DNA from: Futiania mangrovi
GTDB taxonomy: Bacteria; Pseudomonadota; Alphaproteobacteria; Futianiales; Futianiaceae
NCBI RefSeq assembly: GCF_024158125.1
Contig: NZ_JAMZFT010000001.1
Span: forward strand, 620,001 to 684,000
Reading direction: 5' to 3'
DNA: 64,000 nucleotides
Below are positions 57,632 through 63,829 of this stretch, piece after piece. The notes beneath the pieces are model-generated. The model did not search any database. It was not told the origin of the DNA and saw only the letters and a program-made list of their open reading frames with translations. Within the stretch, counting starts at the first letter, position 1, and the number at the start of each line of letters is the position of its first letter. The position numbers and the translations under genes were made by a program.

Positions 57632-58069
57632 TGGCACGAATGTCTGGCAGGTCACGTCAGAAGGAAATTCGTTGAGGCCGACAAGCGACGTCCCCAGCCT
57701 CCGCGGGGGCCCAGCCCCTTCCGCTATTTCAGGACTTCGCCGAAGGTCATCCGCCTCGCGGTGGCGATGTGCGTCCGGTTCCCGCGGTTGCTCAGAGCAG
57801 GCGACTGACCGATTCAGGCTAAGCCCTTCGTTAAAACGGCGGACGGCTTAAGACTCCCTCCCCTTTATCCCCGCTTCGAAGCAGCGCGCTAAGGCAAACC
57901 CCTTGTGCGAGCCGATCGCGTTGCCTGGCGGAGAGGCGGCGCCCAAACCCAAAAACGCTTGGAAGGGTCGGCTGCTTGCTATAGAGTGAATGAACAGTCA
58001 ATCAAAAGATCGGCGCTGGGTGGCGTAGCGCTCATTCATCAACAGGCGCCGAACGAGGGGAGGACCGAC
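57632..58069. other. Intergenic region with TRAP operon promoter
   Basis: These 438 bases hold no convincing gene. The left part could contain remnants of older coding DNA. The right part carries a promoter-like TTGGAA (57959-57964) and TATAGA (57980-57985), spaced 15 bases, and the operator at 57987-58004. GAGGGGAGG before 58070 is the ribosome-binding site of the TRAP binding protein. Confidence 0.5.
57987..58004. promoter_or_regulatory. TetR-type operator candidate at the TRAP promoter
   Basis: TGAATGAACAGTCAATCA is an imperfect palindrome of 7-base arms (one mismatch) around four bases. It starts two bases after the TATAGA -10 candidate, a position from which a bound protein would block transcription. 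The same architecture occurs at 63812-63829. Confidence 0.55.
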
Positions 58070-59149
58070 ATGAGGATCACCAAGCGTTCGCGACTGGCTG
58101 TCGCATGCAGTGTGGCTGCCGTAATGGCCTTGGGAGGCTTCGCAGCAAGCGTCGGCAGCATCGCAGGCGCGCATGCTGCCGAGGTCGAGGGGCCGAAGGT
58201 GAAATGGCTGCTGTCCGCCTGGGGCAAGCGCCGCGGCATTACCGAGGGGATCGAGTCCCTGGCCAAGCACGTCTCCGATGCCACGGACGGCAATTTCGAG
58301 ATCTCCATCCAGTACGGCGGCGTTCTGTCGAAGCCGGCAGAGAACCTCGACGGCCTGAAGATCGGAGCGTTCGAGGCGGCGATGTTCTGCCCGGTCTATC
58401 ATCCGGGCAAGACGCCGGCGTTGACCGGCCTCGACCTCGCGTTCATGCCGATCTTCGACATGGAGGCCCGCGCGAAGGTGCACGAGGCCTATTTCCAGCA
58501 TCCGGTCGTGCAGCAGGAGTTCGCGAACTGGAACGCCCGCCCGTTGATCTCCGCCCTGATGCCGGGCTACGAGGTCATGGGCAAGGGCGAGCCGCCGCGC
58601 GAGATGAAGGACTGGGAGGGCCTGCGCCTGCATGCCGCGGGCGGAATGGGCGACGTGCTGCGCTCGCTGGGCGCGGTGACGACCACGCTGCCGGCGCCGG
58701 AAACCTACCAGTCGCTGGAGCGGGGCGTGATCGACGGACTGGCGTTCCCGTTCACCTATGCCTTCGCCGCCTACCGCCTGCACGAGATCTCCGACTGGTA
58801 CACGTCGGACCTGGCGCTAGGCTCCACCACGTGCCCGGTGGCGGTCAGCCAGCAGGCGTGGGACGCGCTGCCGCAGCAATACAAGGATCTGATCGAGCGG
58901 GTGAAGCCGACCGCCTACAAGGAACAGCGTGAGAAGAACGTCGAGATCGACGCGAAGAACCTCGCGGCCTTCAAGGAGGCGGGCCTGACGCCGGTCAGCT
59001 ATCCGGCAGAGGTGCGCCAGCAGATCATCGACCGGGTGGCAAAGCAGAGCTGGGAGAACTGGGTGAAGACGCGCTCCGAGCAAGGGCTGCCGGGGCAGGA
59101 ACTGCTCGACTTCATCCTCGCCGAGGCCAAGAGCGCGCAGGGAAGCTGA
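58070..59149 (+). CDS. TRAP transporter substrate-binding protein (DctP family)
   Basis: The 359-residue protein has a signal peptide (cleavage near AHAAEVEG) and the DctP fold: VKWLLSAWGKRRGITEGIESLAKHV, the substrate-contact region MLPGYE-like ISALMPGYEVMGKG with WEGLRLHAAGGMGDVLRSLGA, and ERGVIDGLAFPFTYA. The arginine of RLHAAGG is the usual carboxylate-binding residue, so an organic acid is the likely ligand. It heads an operon with both permeases and a dehydrogenase. Confidence 0.92.
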   Translation: MRITKRSRLAVACSVAAVMALGGFAASVGSIAGAHAAEVEGPKVKWLLSAWGKRRGITEGIESLAKHVSDATDGNFEISIQYGGVLSKPAENLDGLKIGAFEAAMFCPVYHPGKTPALTGLDLAFMPIFDMEARAKVHEAYFQHPVVQQEFANWNARPLISALMPGYEVMGKGEPPREMKDWEGLRLHAAGGMGDVLRSLGAVTTTLPAPETYQSLERGVIDGLAFPFTYAFAAYRLHEISDWYTSDLALGSTTCPVAVSQQAWDALPQQYKDLIERVKPTAYKEQREKNVEIDAKNLAAFKEAGLTPVSYPAEVRQQIIDRVAKQSWENWVKTRSEQGLPGQELLDFILAEAKSAQGS

Positions 59150-59312: not shown

Positions 59313-59897
59313 ATGCGGCACCCGCTTCAGGCCTTGCACGAGGGTCTCCTGCGCCTCGAGATCGGGGGCGCCCTGGTGTCGGGGGCCTTCGTCCTCGTCA
59401 TCATGCTCGCGGGCTGCGCCGAGATCGTCGGGCGGGGCCTCTTCAACGCCCCGATCCACGGCTATCTCGACATCATCGAACAGACGATGGTCGCGGTCGC
59501 GCTGTTCGGCGTTTCCTACTGCCAGGCGACCCTCGGAAACGTCCGGATGACGCTGCTGATCGGCGCGATGTCGGGACGCCCGCGCTGGGTCGCGGAAGCG
59601 GTGTCGCTGCTGGTGTGCCTGTTCGTCGCACTCATCCTGATGCAGGGGAGCTGGAACCATTTCCTGCGGGCCTGGCAGATCGGCGGCAGCACGGCGGAGA
59701 TCGACATTCCGACCTGGATCAGCACGCTGCTGGTGCCGGTGTCGTTCGCGGTGCTCTCGGTGCGCCTCGTCCTGCAGATCCTCGACGCGGTCCGGGTGGC
59801 CGTGAACCCGGACACGGACCCGCTGGTGATCCCGGTGATGGACCATGGCCACGGCGCGGCCGACGAGCCCAAGGAGGATGGCGCATGGACCCCGTGA
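59313..59897 (+). CDS. TRAP transporter small permease (DctQ)
   Basis: The 194-residue protein has four transmembrane helices and the DctQ pattern: LEIGGALVSGAFVLVIMLAGCAEIVGRGLFNAPIHGYLDIIEQTMV and VSYCQATLGNVRMTLLIGAM. It links the binding protein with the large permease. It overlaps the next gene by 13 bases. The start is approximate; AAGGGA lies 11 bases upstream. Confidence 0.9.
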   Translation: MRHPLQALHEGLLRLEIGGALVSGAFVLVIMLAGCAEIVGRGLFNAPIHGYLDIIEQTMVAVALFGVSYCQATLGNVRMTLLIGAMSGRPRWVAEAVSLLVCLFVALILMQGSWNHFLRAWQIGGSTAEIDIPTWISTLLVPVSFAVLSVRLVLQILDAVRVAVNPDTDPLVIPVMDHGHGAADEPKEDGAWTP

Positions 59898-61186
59898 CGC
59901 TGGGCTTCATCGGAGTGGGACTGCTGGTCGCGCTGATCGTGATCGGCGTGCCGGTCGCGTTCGCCGCCGCCGTCATCGGCATCGGCGGCCTCTGGTACAT
60001 GCGCGGGATCGACACGGCCATCGGGCTTTCCGGCATCGTGCCGCACGCGACCTCGACATCCTATGAATTGAGCGTGCTCCCGCTGTTCATCGCTATCGGC
60101 TTCCTGGCGCTGCACGCGGGCATCACGCGGGGCGCGTTCCAGGCGGCGCGGCTCTGGCTCGGCCGCGCCCCGGGCGGGCTCGCCACGGCGACCATCTTCG
60201 CGAGCGCGGGCTTCTCCGCGGTCTCCGGCGCGAGCACGGCGACGGCGGCGGTGTTCACGCGCCTAGCGGTGCCGGAGATGGAACAGCGCGGCTACGACCG
60301 GGCGCTGGCCGCGGGCGTGGTGGCAGTAGGGGGCACGCTGGCTGCGCTGATCCCGCCGAGCGCGATCCTGGTGATCTACGGCATCCTGGTGGAGGAATCG
60401 ATCGGCCGGCTGCTGCTCGCGGGCATCATTCCGGGCATCATCTCGATGGCCATCTACATGGTCGTCATCACCATCGTGGTGAAGCGCAACCCGTCGCTGG
60501 CGCCCAGCCTCGAACCGGTGCGGATGATCGAGAAGTTGAAGTCGCTGACGCAGGTGTGGGGCATCCTCGCGGTCGTTGGCGTGATCCTGGGCGGGGTCTA
60601 TTTCGGCTGGATGACGCCGACGGAATCAGCGGCAGTCGGCACCGCGATCATCCTCTCCATCGCCGCCACGCGGGGCATGCGCCTGGTCGATCTGAAGGCG
60701 GGCCTGCTCGAAACCGTCAAGACGACGGCCATGATCTTCATGGTGATCTGGGGCGTCCTGGTGTTCGTGCGCTTCCTCGCCTTCACGGGCATGCCGGCGA
60801 TGGTCACGGACGCGGTGCTGGAGCTGGACGTCGCGCCTTGGGTGATCCTGATGGGGGTGATCCTGCTCTATCTCGTGATGGGGATGGTGCTCGACGGGCT
60901 CGGCATGCTGATCCTGACGCTGCCGGTGATCTATCCGGCGATCATCGCGCTCGGCTACGATCCGATCTGGTTCGGCGTGCTGGTTGTGAAGATGATCGAG
61001 ATCGGCCTCATCACGCCGCCGGTGGGCCTCAATTGCTATGTCGTGCACGGGGTCCGGCCGGACATCCCGCTTGAGCAGGTGTTCCGCGGCGTCGCGCCCT
61101 TCCTCGTGGGCGAGGTGGTGATCGTCGCGATCCTCGTCCTGTTCCCGGAGGTCGTGCTGTTCCTGCCCGACACGATGATGAACTGA
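59885..61186 (+). CDS. TRAP transporter large permease (DctM)
   Basis: The 433-residue protein has about twelve helices. DctM signatures include VLPLFIAIGFLALHAGI, the SAVSGASTATAAVFTRLAVPEM motif, GTLAALIPPSAILVIYGIL, and GLITPPVGLNCYVVHGV near the C-terminus. It carries out sodium-driven solute uptake. The overlap with dctQ indicates coupled translation. Confidence 0.95.
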   Translation: MDPVTLGFIGVGLLVALIVIGVPVAFAAAVIGIGGLWYMRGIDTAIGLSGIVPHATSTSYELSVLPLFIAIGFLALHAGITRGAFQAARLWLGRAPGGLATATIFASAGFSAVSGASTATAAVFTRLAVPEMEQRGYDRALAAGVVAVGGTLAALIPPSAILVIYGILVEESIGRLLLAGIIPGIISMAIYMVVITIVVKRNPSLAPSLEPVRMIEKLKSLTQVWGILAVVGVILGGVYFGWMTPTESAAVGTAIILSIAATRGMRLVDLKAGLLETVKTTAMIFMVIWGVLVFVRFLAFTGMPAMVTDAVLELDVAPWVILMGVILLYLVMGMVLDGLGMLILTLPVIYPAIIALGYDPIWFGVLVVKMIEIGLITPPVGLNCYVVHGVRPDIPLEQVFRGVAPFLVGEVVIVAILVLFPEVVLFLPDTMMN

Positions 61187-61209: not shown

Positions 61210-62121
61210 ATGCGCCAAGCGGGTTTCATCGGCCTCGGCGCGATCGGCTGGCCCATGGCTGAGCGGCTTCTGACAGCCGGCGCTTCACTCGCCGTATGGG
61301 GACGCAGCGCCGCCCGCCTTCAGCGTGCGCGAGAGGCGGGCGCCGCTCTTGCGGACGATGCCGCCGCACTGGCCCGCGACTGCGAAACGGTCTTCCTGTG
61401 CCTGACCGACACCGACGCGGTGGAGGAGGTCGTCTTTGGCCCCTCCGGCATCGCGGAAGGAGTGGGGCGCGCCGGGGCAGGGCGGGTTCTTGTCGATCTC
61501 TCGACCGTCGATCCGGGGCGGACGCGCGTCATGGCCGCAAGGTTGACGGACACGACCGGCATGGGCTGGGTGGACGCGCCCGTCTCGGGCGGGCCGGCCG
61601 GCGCGCGGGCCGGAACGCTCGCGGTCATGGCGGGCGGGGCGGCGGCGGACGTGGAGAAGGTCCGGCCTGTGCTCGCCGCGTTCGCAGGCCATGTCACGCA
61701 CATGGGGCCGGCGGGGTGCGGCCAGGCGACGAAGGCGTGCAACCAGATGATCTCGGCCAGCACGCTGGCGGGCGTGGCGGAGGCGCTGACGCTGGCGCGC
61801 GGGTTCGGCCTCGACGTGGAGAAACTGCCGCAAGCGTTGAAGGGCGGGTGGGCGGACAGCCCACTCCTCCAGGCCTACATGCCGCGCATGGCGTCGGGCG
61901 ACCTGTTCGGCCACACGCGCACGATCCTCAAGGACCTGGGGATCGCCCGTGCGCTGGCGGCGGAGCGGGGGCTGAAGCTGCCGGTGCTCGACCATCTGCT
62001 GGCGACCTATGCCCGGGTGCTGGAGATGGGACAGGCGGAGAGCGGAATCGGCGGGCTCATCCACGCCTACGACGCGGACCGGACGGGGCGTGGGAGAGGC
62101 GGCGGAGAGGGCGGGGACTGA
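61210..62121 (+). CDS. 3-hydroxyisobutyrate dehydrogenase family oxidoreductase
   Basis: The 303-residue protein has GFIGLGAIGWPMAERLL (NAD-binding), VDLSTVDPG, the substrate motif VDAPVSGGPAGARAGTLAVMAGG, and the catalytic lysine in GQATKACNQMI. Such beta-hydroxyacid dehydrogenases oxidise 3-hydroxyisobutyrate, tartronate semialdehyde and related acids. It follows the TRAP permease by 23 bases and probably acts on the imported acid. Confidence 0.92.
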   Translation: MRQAGFIGLGAIGWPMAERLLTAGASLAVWGRSAARLQRAREAGAALADDAAALARDCETVFLCLTDTDAVEEVVFGPSGIAEGVGRAGAGRVLVDLSTVDPGRTRVMAARLTDTTGMGWVDAPVSGGPAGARAGTLAVMAGGAAADVEKVRPVLAAFAGHVTHMGPAGCGQATKACNQMISASTLAGVAEALTLARGFGLDVEKLPQALKGGWADSPLLQAYMPRMASGDLFGHTRTILKDLGIARALAAERGLKLPVLDHLLATYARVLEMGQAESGIGGLIHAYDADRTGRGRGGGEGGD

Positions 62122-62136: not shown

Positions 62137-62559
62137 TCAGCTCCGGGCGCGGGCGGCGAACAGCGGTCCGTCGGTGTGGGCGAGGACCACGATTTCCACG
62201 GGGGCGTCGAGCGGAATGGGGCCGTCGTCCTCCACCAGCGCGCAGCAGATGCGCAACCTCTCGTCCAGATCGACGATCCCGACATGGATCGGGGCTTGCT
62301 CCGCGAAGACCTTGGGTGCGGCGTGGATCACGGTGCGGGAATAGAGCGTGCCCCGGCCCGAAAGGGCCTCCCAGGCGTGCGCCTTCGACCAGCAGTGCGG
62401 GCAGAAGGGCTTGGGCGGGAAGGTGAAGCGGCGGCAGTCCCGGCATTTCGTGGTCTGGAAGCGGCCCTCGGCTAGCGCATCCCAGAACACGCGGGTCAGC
62501 GAGGTCGGGCGGGGCGGCCAGGCGCGGGGACGGTCGACGCGCAGGATCTCACAGGTCAT
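62137..62559 (-). CDS. DUF35 Zn-ribbon/OB-fold protein, partner of the thiolase-like enzyme
   Basis: The 140-residue protein has a rubredoxin-like zinc ribbon (C-x2-C in TTKCRDCRRF and C-x2-C in PFCPHCWSK) followed by an OB-fold (GRGTLYSRTVIHAAPKVF, VGIVDLDERLRICCAL). DUF35 proteins form complexes with SCP2-type thiolase-like enzymes and shape or cover the acyl-CoA site. Its ATG overlaps the stop of the thiolase gene, so the two are made in step. Confidence 0.9.
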   Translation of the reverse strand: MTCEILRVDRPRAWPPRPTSLTRVFWDALAEGRFQTTKCRDCRRFTFPPKPFCPHCWSKAHAWEALSGRGTLYSRTVIHAAPKVFAEQAPIHVGIVDLDERLRICCALVEDDGPIPLDAPVEIVVLAHTDGPLFAARARS

Positions 62560-63749
62560 CGGACGGCCTCCAGAATATGGACAAGGGCGGCGTTGTAGTT
62601 GCCCAGCTCGGCGCTGGTCGCGCCGATGGCGGCGCCCTTCACCTGGCGGTCCCCGGCGCGTCCCATCAGCTGCTCGAACGCCTCGACGGTATTGTAGAGT
62701 GGCGTGACATAGGCCGGGTGGCCGCGCGACATCAGGCTGCCGGAGGTGGAGACGGGGATGCGGCCGCCGAGCGCGGTCTGCCCCTCGGCCGCCTGCCGGC
62801 CGCCCTGGCCCCGGGGCACGAGGCCCATCGCCTCGGTCGCCAGCACCTCGACGATGGTGCAGGGGGCATAAAGCTCGGCGAAGGCGAGATCGGCGGGCCC
62901 GACGCCCGCCATGTCGTAGGCGGTGCGGCTCGCAGCCCTGAGCGCGCCAAGCGCGATCATGTCGTTCGGCTGCTCGCTGATCTGGTGCGCGCCCTCGTGA
63001 TGGAAGCCGCGTCCGCGCACACGGACGTAGGGCTGACCGCTGGCGCGCGCGACGTCTTCGGATGCGACAACGATGCAAACCGCCCCGTCGCCCCGCGGCG
63101 GGACCTCGTAGAGGCCCAGCGGCTCGACGATGGGGCGCTGCGCCAGAACCTCCTCCAGCGTGATGGGGTCACGGTACTGGGCAAGCGGGTTCAGCGCGGC
63201 GTGGGCGCGGTTCTTGACCGCAACGCTCGCAAGTTCCGCGCGCGACGAGCCATGCTCATGGATGTAGCGCATGGCGTCCATGGCGTACCAGGCGATGGGC
63301 GTGAGACCGAAGGGCACGTGGAAGTCGACGTCCCCGGTCGCGCGCATGGAGGAATTCATGTGCTCGCCCGAGGGGGTCGCGCTCTCGAAATTGACGCCGA
63401 GAGCCAGGGCCACGCGGGAGCGCCCGCTCTCCACGTCGCGGATCGCCTGTTCTAGCGCGATGCCGCCCGTCATGCCGTTACCCAGCACCTCCATGACCGA
63501 GCCGTCGCAGGGCAGGCGGAGATAGTGCGCCATGAAGGTCGAGAAGTATTTCTGCAGCGTGTAGGGGCGGCACTGGGCGAGAATCAGGCTGTTCACGTCG
63601 TCCTTGGCTACACCGGCTTGCGCGATGGCGTCGACCACGAGCCCCGCGAGAAGCTCGTGTTCGAGAACGTGAAGGTCGGAATCCGGCTTCGACTGGAACT
63701 TGCCGACGGGCGTCGCCGCAGCGCCGATGATGGCCACCGATTGCGTCAT
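62556..63749 (-). CDS. Thiolase-like (SCP2 family) protein without the catalytic cysteine
   Basis: The 397-residue protein has a thiolase fold. Where SCP2 thiolases carry the nucleophile (NxxCASG) it reads LGNGMTGGIALEQA (Gly92 in the Cys position). The region of the HDCF motif reads AELYAPCTIVEVL, while MSRGHPAYVT keeps the active-site His; the C-terminal Cys motif is also absent. Ordinary thiolysis is therefore unlikely. With a DUF35 partner it resembles Ltp2-type acyl-CoA retro-aldolases. The start at 63749 follows GGGGGGAG; ATG at 63809 is less likely. Confidence 0.87.
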   Translation of the reverse strand: MTQSVAIIGAAATPVGKFQSKPDSDLHVLEHELLAGLVVDAIAQAGVAKDDVNSLILAQCRPYTLQKYFSTFMAHYLRLPCDGSVMEVLGNGMTGGIALEQAIRDVESGRSRVALALGVNFESATPSGEHMNSSMRATGDVDFHVPFGLTPIAWYAMDAMRYIHEHGSSRAELASVAVKNRAHAALNPLAQYRDPITLEEVLAQRPIVEPLGLYEVPPRGDGAVCIVVASEDVARASGQPYVRVRGRGFHHEGAHQISEQPNDMIALGALRAASRTAYDMAGVGPADLAFAELYAPCTIVEVLATEAMGLVPRGQGGRQAAEGQTALGGRIPVSTSGSLMSRGHPAYVTPLYNTVEAFEQLMGRAGDRQVKGAAIGATSAELGNYNAALVHILEAVR

Positions 63750-63811: not shown

Positions 63812-63829
63812 AGAATGAATGATCATTCA
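63812..63829. promoter_or_regulatory. TetR-type operator candidate upstream of the thiolase-like gene
   Basis: AGAATGAATGATCATTCA contains GAATGA-N4-TCATTC and also a perfect 14-base palindrome TGAATGATCATTCA (63816-63829). It lies about 63 bases before the thiolase-like start and shares arms and spacing with 57987-58004. Confidence 0.6.

Follow-up and report, generated by a model that had tools for sequence, protein, structure and literature searches.

A thiolase-fold/DUF35 gene pair without the thiolase cysteine in Futiania mangrovi: a candidate acyl-CoA retro-aldolase of a widespread family

The stretch of Futiania mangrovi DNA analysed here (assembly GCF_024158125.1, contig NZ_JAMZFT010000001.1, positions 620,001-684,000 of the forward strand; 64,000 nt, referred to as the window) carries a gene pair encoding a thiolase-fold protein without the thiolase cysteine and a DUF35 protein; the pair is confirmed as real, beyond chance. 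We consider it likely that the two proteins form a heteromeric acyl-CoA retro-aldolase. Their family is probably a widespread, newly recognised variant of the already known thiolase-fold retro-aldolases; literature searches returned no paper on this particular Cys-less Gly92/YAPC family. The features concerned are the following:

62556-63749, minus strand: gene of the thiolase-fold protein without nucleophilic Cys (397 aa; putative acyl-CoA retro-aldolase catalytic subunit); residue set Gly92; Tyr294-Ala-Pro-Cys297; Arg-Gly-His344-Pro; Glu381-Leu-Gly-Asn-Tyr-Asn
62137-62559, minus strand: DUF35 / ChsH2-like partner gene (140 aa; C4 zinc ribbon, CRDC...CPHC, and OB fold)
63816-63829: TGAATGATCATTCA, a perfect palindrome of 14 bp located between the divergently transcribed thiolase-like and TetR genes, in their promoter region
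58124-59149 (gene-call start; ORF 57905-59149), plus strand: TRAP substrate-binding protein DctP, weakly linked to the pair
59313-61186, plus strand: TRAP permeases (small, 59313-59897; large, within the ORF ending at 61186), weakly linked to the pair
61210-62121, plus strand: beta-hydroxyacid dehydrogenase (3-hydroxyisobutyrate / tartronate-semialdehyde reductase superfamily), in the TRAP operon and convergent with the pair

The two genes overlap by 4 bases, ATGA being both the stop of the thiolase-like gene and the start of the DUF35 gene. A DUF35 start at -4 was also found in at least 33 of 39 homologous loci (the remaining 6 were missed by the strict zinc-ribbon pattern used in this count), and a DUF35 match lies within 4 kb in 40 out of 40 loci when that of the window is included. 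The coupling noticed in an earlier sequence-only reading of this DNA recurs in the family. The Pfam models Thiolase_N and Thiolase_C_1 match the larger protein above their cut-offs, as zf-ChsH2 and OB_ChsH2_C do the smaller one. The best NCBIfam matches of the thiolase-like protein are thiolase-domain subfamilies, every one of them far below its own cut-off, so that no curated model covers it. Its AlphaFold model has a thiolase fold (pLDDT 82.8, pTM 0.88) and aligns with DUF35-paired members of the thiolase superfamily with VIA-align Z of 40-47; confidence is low in the active-site loops 135-151, 208-215 and 338-344.

Alignment with SCP2, archaeal, BbsB and classical thiolases places Gly92 at the position of the nucleophilic Cys and Tyr294 at the His of HDCF (Asn in classical thiolases). 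The HDCF region reads Y294-A-P-C297, with Pro296 at the HDCF Cys and Cys297 at the next residue, the Phe of HDCF. The cysteine of the C-terminal CxG motif is replaced as well (A380-E381-L-G); it aligns with Ala380 or Glu381, given a one-residue ambiguity of the alignment. Both the nucleophilic Cys and the second catalytic Cys (HDCF or CxG) of SCP2/BbsB-type thiolases are consequently absent, and the three peculiarities on which the sequence-only reading was built, namely Gly92, the missing C-terminal motif and a tyrosine in the HDCF-like region, all hold. One correction applies: the nucleophile, HDCF and CxG cysteines are all missing, but Cys297 is invariant in the family and lies one residue past the HDCF Cys position, so that the active-site vicinity is not cysteine-free. 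The catalytic histidine of the GHP motif of SCP2/BbsB-type thiolases is kept as His344 in RGHP in all 39 homologues, which likewise all have Gly in place of the nucleophile and Tyr at the HDCF His. In every sequence examined the Gly/Cys and Tyr/His swaps coincide: all those with Cys at 92 have His at 294 (Asn in classical thiolases).

The family is conserved across a wide taxonomic range. Its homologues in Proteobacteria and Actinobacteria are 57-79% identical across classes and phyla, and GNG[M/C]T, YAPC, RGHP and ELGNYN are each present in 39/39 loci; two Burkholderiales proteins (L008 and L009) have Cys at position 93 (GNGCT), the sole exceptions to Met. A genome scan yielded 35 homologues (63-79% identity), chiefly from Burkholderiales, with further carriers in Rhodococcus, Pseudarthrobacter, Citricoccus, Streptosporangiales, Solimonas and Steroidobacter; plasmid searches added homologues from Roseomonas, Achromobacter, Cupriavidus and Pacificitalea (57-70%). 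The nearest homologue of the window protein is from Burkholderiales and a close copy occurs in only 5 of 385 sampled genomes of the class to which the window belongs (its source genome included), a patchy distribution which suggests horizontal transfer. Two to three thiolase-like/DUF35 pairs lie within 17 kb in Verticiella sediminum (L036) and in two further loci (L013 and L024; Pseudacidovorax, Comamonadaceae), adjoined by KstD-like flavoenzymes and, in L013 and L024, by a Rieske oxygenase.

With five (or three) classical thiolases of the same genome as the root, and TbSLP left out, the trees place all Gly/Tyr proteins in one clade (support 97/90, 98/95 and 99/94), which keeps an SH-aLRT value of 91 after removal of the active-site columns. 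This clade consists of two deep branches. One contains Ltp2, Sal, IpfD, the Sphaerobacter protein 4u4e and three paralogues from the window genome; the other contains the window family together with haloarchaeal proteins bearing TGGTSGG/YAPF. The window family is not inside the Ltp2/Sal/IpfD clade and is sister to it, each branch being supported at 100/99 or better. In an AU test, the one alternative topology in which the family joins the Cys thiolases was not rejected (P = 0.12), and a deep sister relation to the Ltp2/Sal group is for that reason favoured, not proven. Two independent losses of the nucleophilic Cys were considered and are not favoured, with the same P value as a reservation. 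The likeness to Ltp2-ChsH2 enzymes to which the sequence-only reading had pointed stands in part: the protein groups with Ltp2, Sal and IpfD and not with Cys thiolases, but on a sister branch, lacking both YDxF and Tyr344.

The three paralogues on the Ltp2/Sal side of the tree (L048, L049 and L050), which are also Cys-less and Tyr-bearing, bring the number of such genes in the window genome to four in 3.4 Mb; one of them is Ltp2-like, 43% identical to 6ok1. Their genomic positions are:

C1:554513-555664: Cys-less paralogue
C1:338291-339454: Cys-less paralogue
C2:1057623-1058780: Cys-less paralogue

The haloarchaeal sister proteins, encoded on plasmids (L063, L065, L084 and L092), also lack the nucleophilic Cys and have YAPF as well as a separate sequence motif; in three of these loci an annotated DUF35 gene comes next (L063 carries no annotation), and the neighbourhood differs.

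The genes accompanying the pair are those of acyl-CoA catabolism. A divergent operon lies immediately outside the window, upstream of the thiolase-like gene and 296 bases from its start; it encodes a TetR regulator, an ADP-forming acyl-CoA ligase, a MaoC hydratase (GDxNPxH motif), an acyl-CoA dehydrogenase, a class-III CoA-transferase, a membrane protein without assigned family and an enoyl-CoA hydratase. A 486-aa product of this operon was considered as an aldehyde dehydrogenase and rejected, as it had no Pfam match and resembles a membrane permease. The same gene set recurs in other phyla, in annotated form on Roseomonas gilardii plasmid 3, Achromobacter pA82 and Pacificitalea pDY25-B, and in unannotated actinobacterial loci (L010-L012, L017 and L023). 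Among 30 loci representative at 90% identity, DUF35 was found in 30, CoA activation in 28, an acyl-CoA dehydrogenase in 23 and MaoC in 20, the last two together in 19; an SDR or 3-hydroxyacyl-CoA dehydrogenase was found in only 5. The latter enzymes accompany 7/40 family loci versus 7/13 Cys-containing relatives (Fisher P = 0.025), and only 1/13 of those relatives has MaoC plus acyl-CoA dehydrogenase (P = 0.0003 versus the family), both P values being descriptive because the loci are related and the Cys-containing controls were picked by plasmid similarity. Activation is provided by either a ligase or a CoA-transferase, which suggests a single pathway whose entry steps can be exchanged. An aldehyde dehydrogenase gene is seldom a neighbour (3/40 loci), so that the surroundings give no indication of aldehyde products. 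In Roseovarius indicus (L091, plasmid pRIdsm_01) the same ligase-MaoC-acyl-CoA dehydrogenase-thiolase-DUF35 operon occurs with TRAP genes beside it, but its thiolase-like protein belongs to the Ltp2/4u4e side of the tree, i.e. the module exists with either lineage.

A beta-hydroxyacyl-CoA that is made, an oxidising enzyme that is usually absent and a nucleophile-less thiolase fold as the last component are best explained by retro-aldol cleavage. The ligase or CoA-transferase would activate an imported acid, the acyl-CoA dehydrogenase would yield a 2-enoyl-CoA and the MaoC hydratase would add water to give the beta-hydroxyacyl-CoA, whose C2-C3 bond the thiolase-fold subunit would split without a covalent acyl-enzyme. 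By analogy with Ltp2 and Sal, where the Tyr of YDxF is the base and the backbone NH of the Gly binds oxygen (PMC12329534), Tyr294 would take the beta-hydroxyl proton and the backbone NH of Gly92 would hold that oxygen. The acyl-CoA enolate may then be protonated by His344, the best candidate, or by Cys297, the second. This proton-donor half of the mechanism is guesswork because the known general acids, Ltp2 Tyr344 and Sal Cys304, are both absent, their columns being occupied by His344 and Pro296; the Y-D-x-(F/Y) motif of Ltp2/Sal/IpfD-type aldolases is likewise replaced by YAPC in 39/39 homologues. In agreement with the literature (PMC12329534), Ltp2 Tyr344 pairs with Sal Gln352 in our alignment, and both fall in the His344 column. 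The products would be acetyl- or propionyl-CoA and an aldehyde or ketone, and the DUF35 protein may, as it does for Sal and Ltp2, give the substrate pocket its shape. The proposal of an acyl-CoA retro-aldolase in the sequence-only reading is supported in kind by the clade and by the neighbours that would make a beta-hydroxyacyl-CoA, with the reservation that one rival topology was not rejected. SDR genes are present further along the acyl-CoA gene island of the window genome itself and may allow beta-oxidation to a ketone, which would speak against retro-aldol cleavage.

A rival reading is a thiolase or Claisen-type acyltransferase acting on 3-ketoacyl-CoAs, in which the displaced Cys297 (or Glu381) replaces the lost nucleophile. 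Invariance of Cys297, retention of the GHP histidine, the thiolase-side topology left open by the AU test and the presence of DUF35-paired true thiolases and PhlC acyltransferases among the nearest folds found by VIA-align all speak for this. However, residue 297 is Phe in the haloarchaeal sister proteins, the matching residue in Sal (Tyr305) is not essential (PMC12329534), position 297 lies outside the nucleophile loop and the module mostly lacks a 3-hydroxyacyl-CoA dehydrogenase, so that we regard a displaced nucleophile as improbable. The neighbourhood also bears on a forward aldolase or other enolate enzyme, such as a decarboxylase, by which a C-C bond would be made rather than broken. The enolate chemistry would be identical and the relative TbSLP has trace malonyl-CoA decarboxylase activity, but Sal has no such activity (PMC12329534) and the surroundings (transporter, CoA activation, dehydrogenase, hydratase) are catabolic, making this option highly improbable. 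Loss of both thiolase cysteines might finally indicate a catalytically dead scaffold binding acyl-CoA for the neighbouring enzymes; with Tyr294, Cys297, His344 and ELGNYN invariant across phyla as new active-site residues and a catalytically active sister branch (PMC12329534), we find this scarcely credible.

The pair apparently works in an uncharacterised, non-steroid pathway common to Proteobacteria and Actinobacteria. We infer a non-steroid substrate, and tentatively suggest, as possible though rather unlikely in this specific form, an acid whose beta-carbon is not oxidisable to a ketone, e.g. a cycloalkylacetic acid. A tertiary beta-carbon chemically demands a retro-aldol exit, as at C17 of the Ltp2 substrate. 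A KstD/ChcC-like flavoenzyme, akin to the dehydrogenases of 3-ketosteroids and of 4-oxocyclohexanecarboxylate, lies within 4 kb in 12/40 loci; it would act on a cyclic ketone, and its occurrence beside many homologues points to alicyclic acids. The window genome contains no close relative of it (best match 29% identity), which weakens the alicyclic guess here and led us to reject the flavoenzyme as a core part of the module. Cyclohexylacetic acid is degraded by Cupriavidus metallidurans KUA-1 (PMC4547698). Another strain, C. metallidurans CH34, carries a family member, and this is circumstantial support for that substrate. An activity of a fitting kind is EC 4.1.3.35, (1-hydroxycyclohexan-1-yl)acetyl-CoA lyase, an orphan enzyme for which we know of no gene. 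Taken together, the family might represent a third thiolase-fold retro-aldolase lineage with its own residue set (Tyr294/His344/Cys297/ELGNYN), serving a module of 'retro-aldol beta-oxidation' that spreads horizontally and handles acids with a beta-carbon unable to form a ketone, e.g. cycloalkylacetic (naphthenic) acids, and possibly supplying the gene for EC 4.1.3.35; as a whole, this combination is speculative and we think it unlikely.

The sequence-only reading had tied the substrate to the TRAP transporter next door. This link is weak because the transporter genes are convergent with the pair, TctC-type transporters are commoner than TRAP beside the homologues (most of which adjoin transporters other than TRAP) and the TRAP binding proteins found beside a few of them are only 24-30% identical to that of the window. 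Involvement of the beta-hydroxyacid dehydrogenase with the pair is uncertain. About 20 kb downstream, the same acyl-CoA gene island ends with the gene of another TRAP binding protein, which shares 46% identity with the window's (L047:11027-12067; genome C1:704027-705067). As to regulation, the 14-bp palindrome in the promoter region is a candidate TetR operator, and a likely one. A 79%-identical locus with a TetR gene beside the pair (L008) has TGAACCATGGTTCA at the equivalent intergenic place before the thiolase gene, and both, perfect palindromes of 14 bp, follow the pattern TGAA-N6-TTCA. A genome-wide search for a regulon found TGAATGATCATTCA at a single site, even with one mismatch allowed.

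Databases label genes of this type 'thiolase' or 'acetyl-CoA acetyltransferase', and their pathways are wrongly annotated as a result. If the proposed reaction is correct, C-C cleavage by thiolase-fold aldolases would not be confined to steroids but would serve Proteobacteria and Actinobacteria as a general and mobile way out of beta-oxidation. The defined residues and gene neighbours give a starting point for a substrate search and for tests of mechanism.

Among known systems, retro-aldolase activity has been proven biochemically for Sal and for Ltp2 (PMC12329534). The steroid C3 side-chain aldolase Ltp2-ChsH2 (PDB 6ok1) shares with the window pair the thiolase fold, the DUF35 partner, the Gly, the Tyr at 294 and an upstream acyl-CoA dehydrogenase and MaoC-type hydratase (ChsH2 being a DUF35-MaoC fusion). 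It differs in having YDHF instead of YAPC and the acid Tyr344 instead of His344, RGHP being kept in the window protein; the window family is a sister clade, with DUF35 as a separate single gene and no sign of a steroid substrate. The bile-acid aldolase CtSal-CtShy (9myr) has the same fold, partner, Gly and Tyr, but reads YDCY, its essential Cys304 aligning with Pro296 and its Gln352 with His344, and the zinc finger of CtShy is C3H1 versus C4 in the window DUF35 protein. IpfD/IpfE of Rhizorhabdus wittichii pIBU218 belong to the ibuprofen-CoA pathway, outside steroid metabolism, and likewise pair a Cys-less thiolase-like protein with an OB-fold protein; genetic evidence shows that ipfD is needed for growth on ibuprofen, whose pathway includes a retro-aldol step (PMC9195938). 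IpfD, however, falls inside the Ltp2 clade (98/96) and acts after a ring dioxygenase, not after an acyl-CoA dehydrogenase and hydratase. The putative thiolase 4u4e of Sphaerobacter thermophilus and its Roseovarius indicus relative are also Cys-less and Tyr-bearing, and the Roseovarius gene has the same ligase-MaoC-acyl-CoA dehydrogenase-DUF35 arrangement, but both belong to the Ltp2/Sal side of the tree and have a YDSF motif. Benzoylsuccinyl-CoA thiolase BbsAB (7pxp) and similar DUF35-paired thiolases share the fold and the partner, whereas they keep the nucleophilic Cys and HDAF, and their plasmid relatives mostly have an adjacent SDR dehydrogenase.
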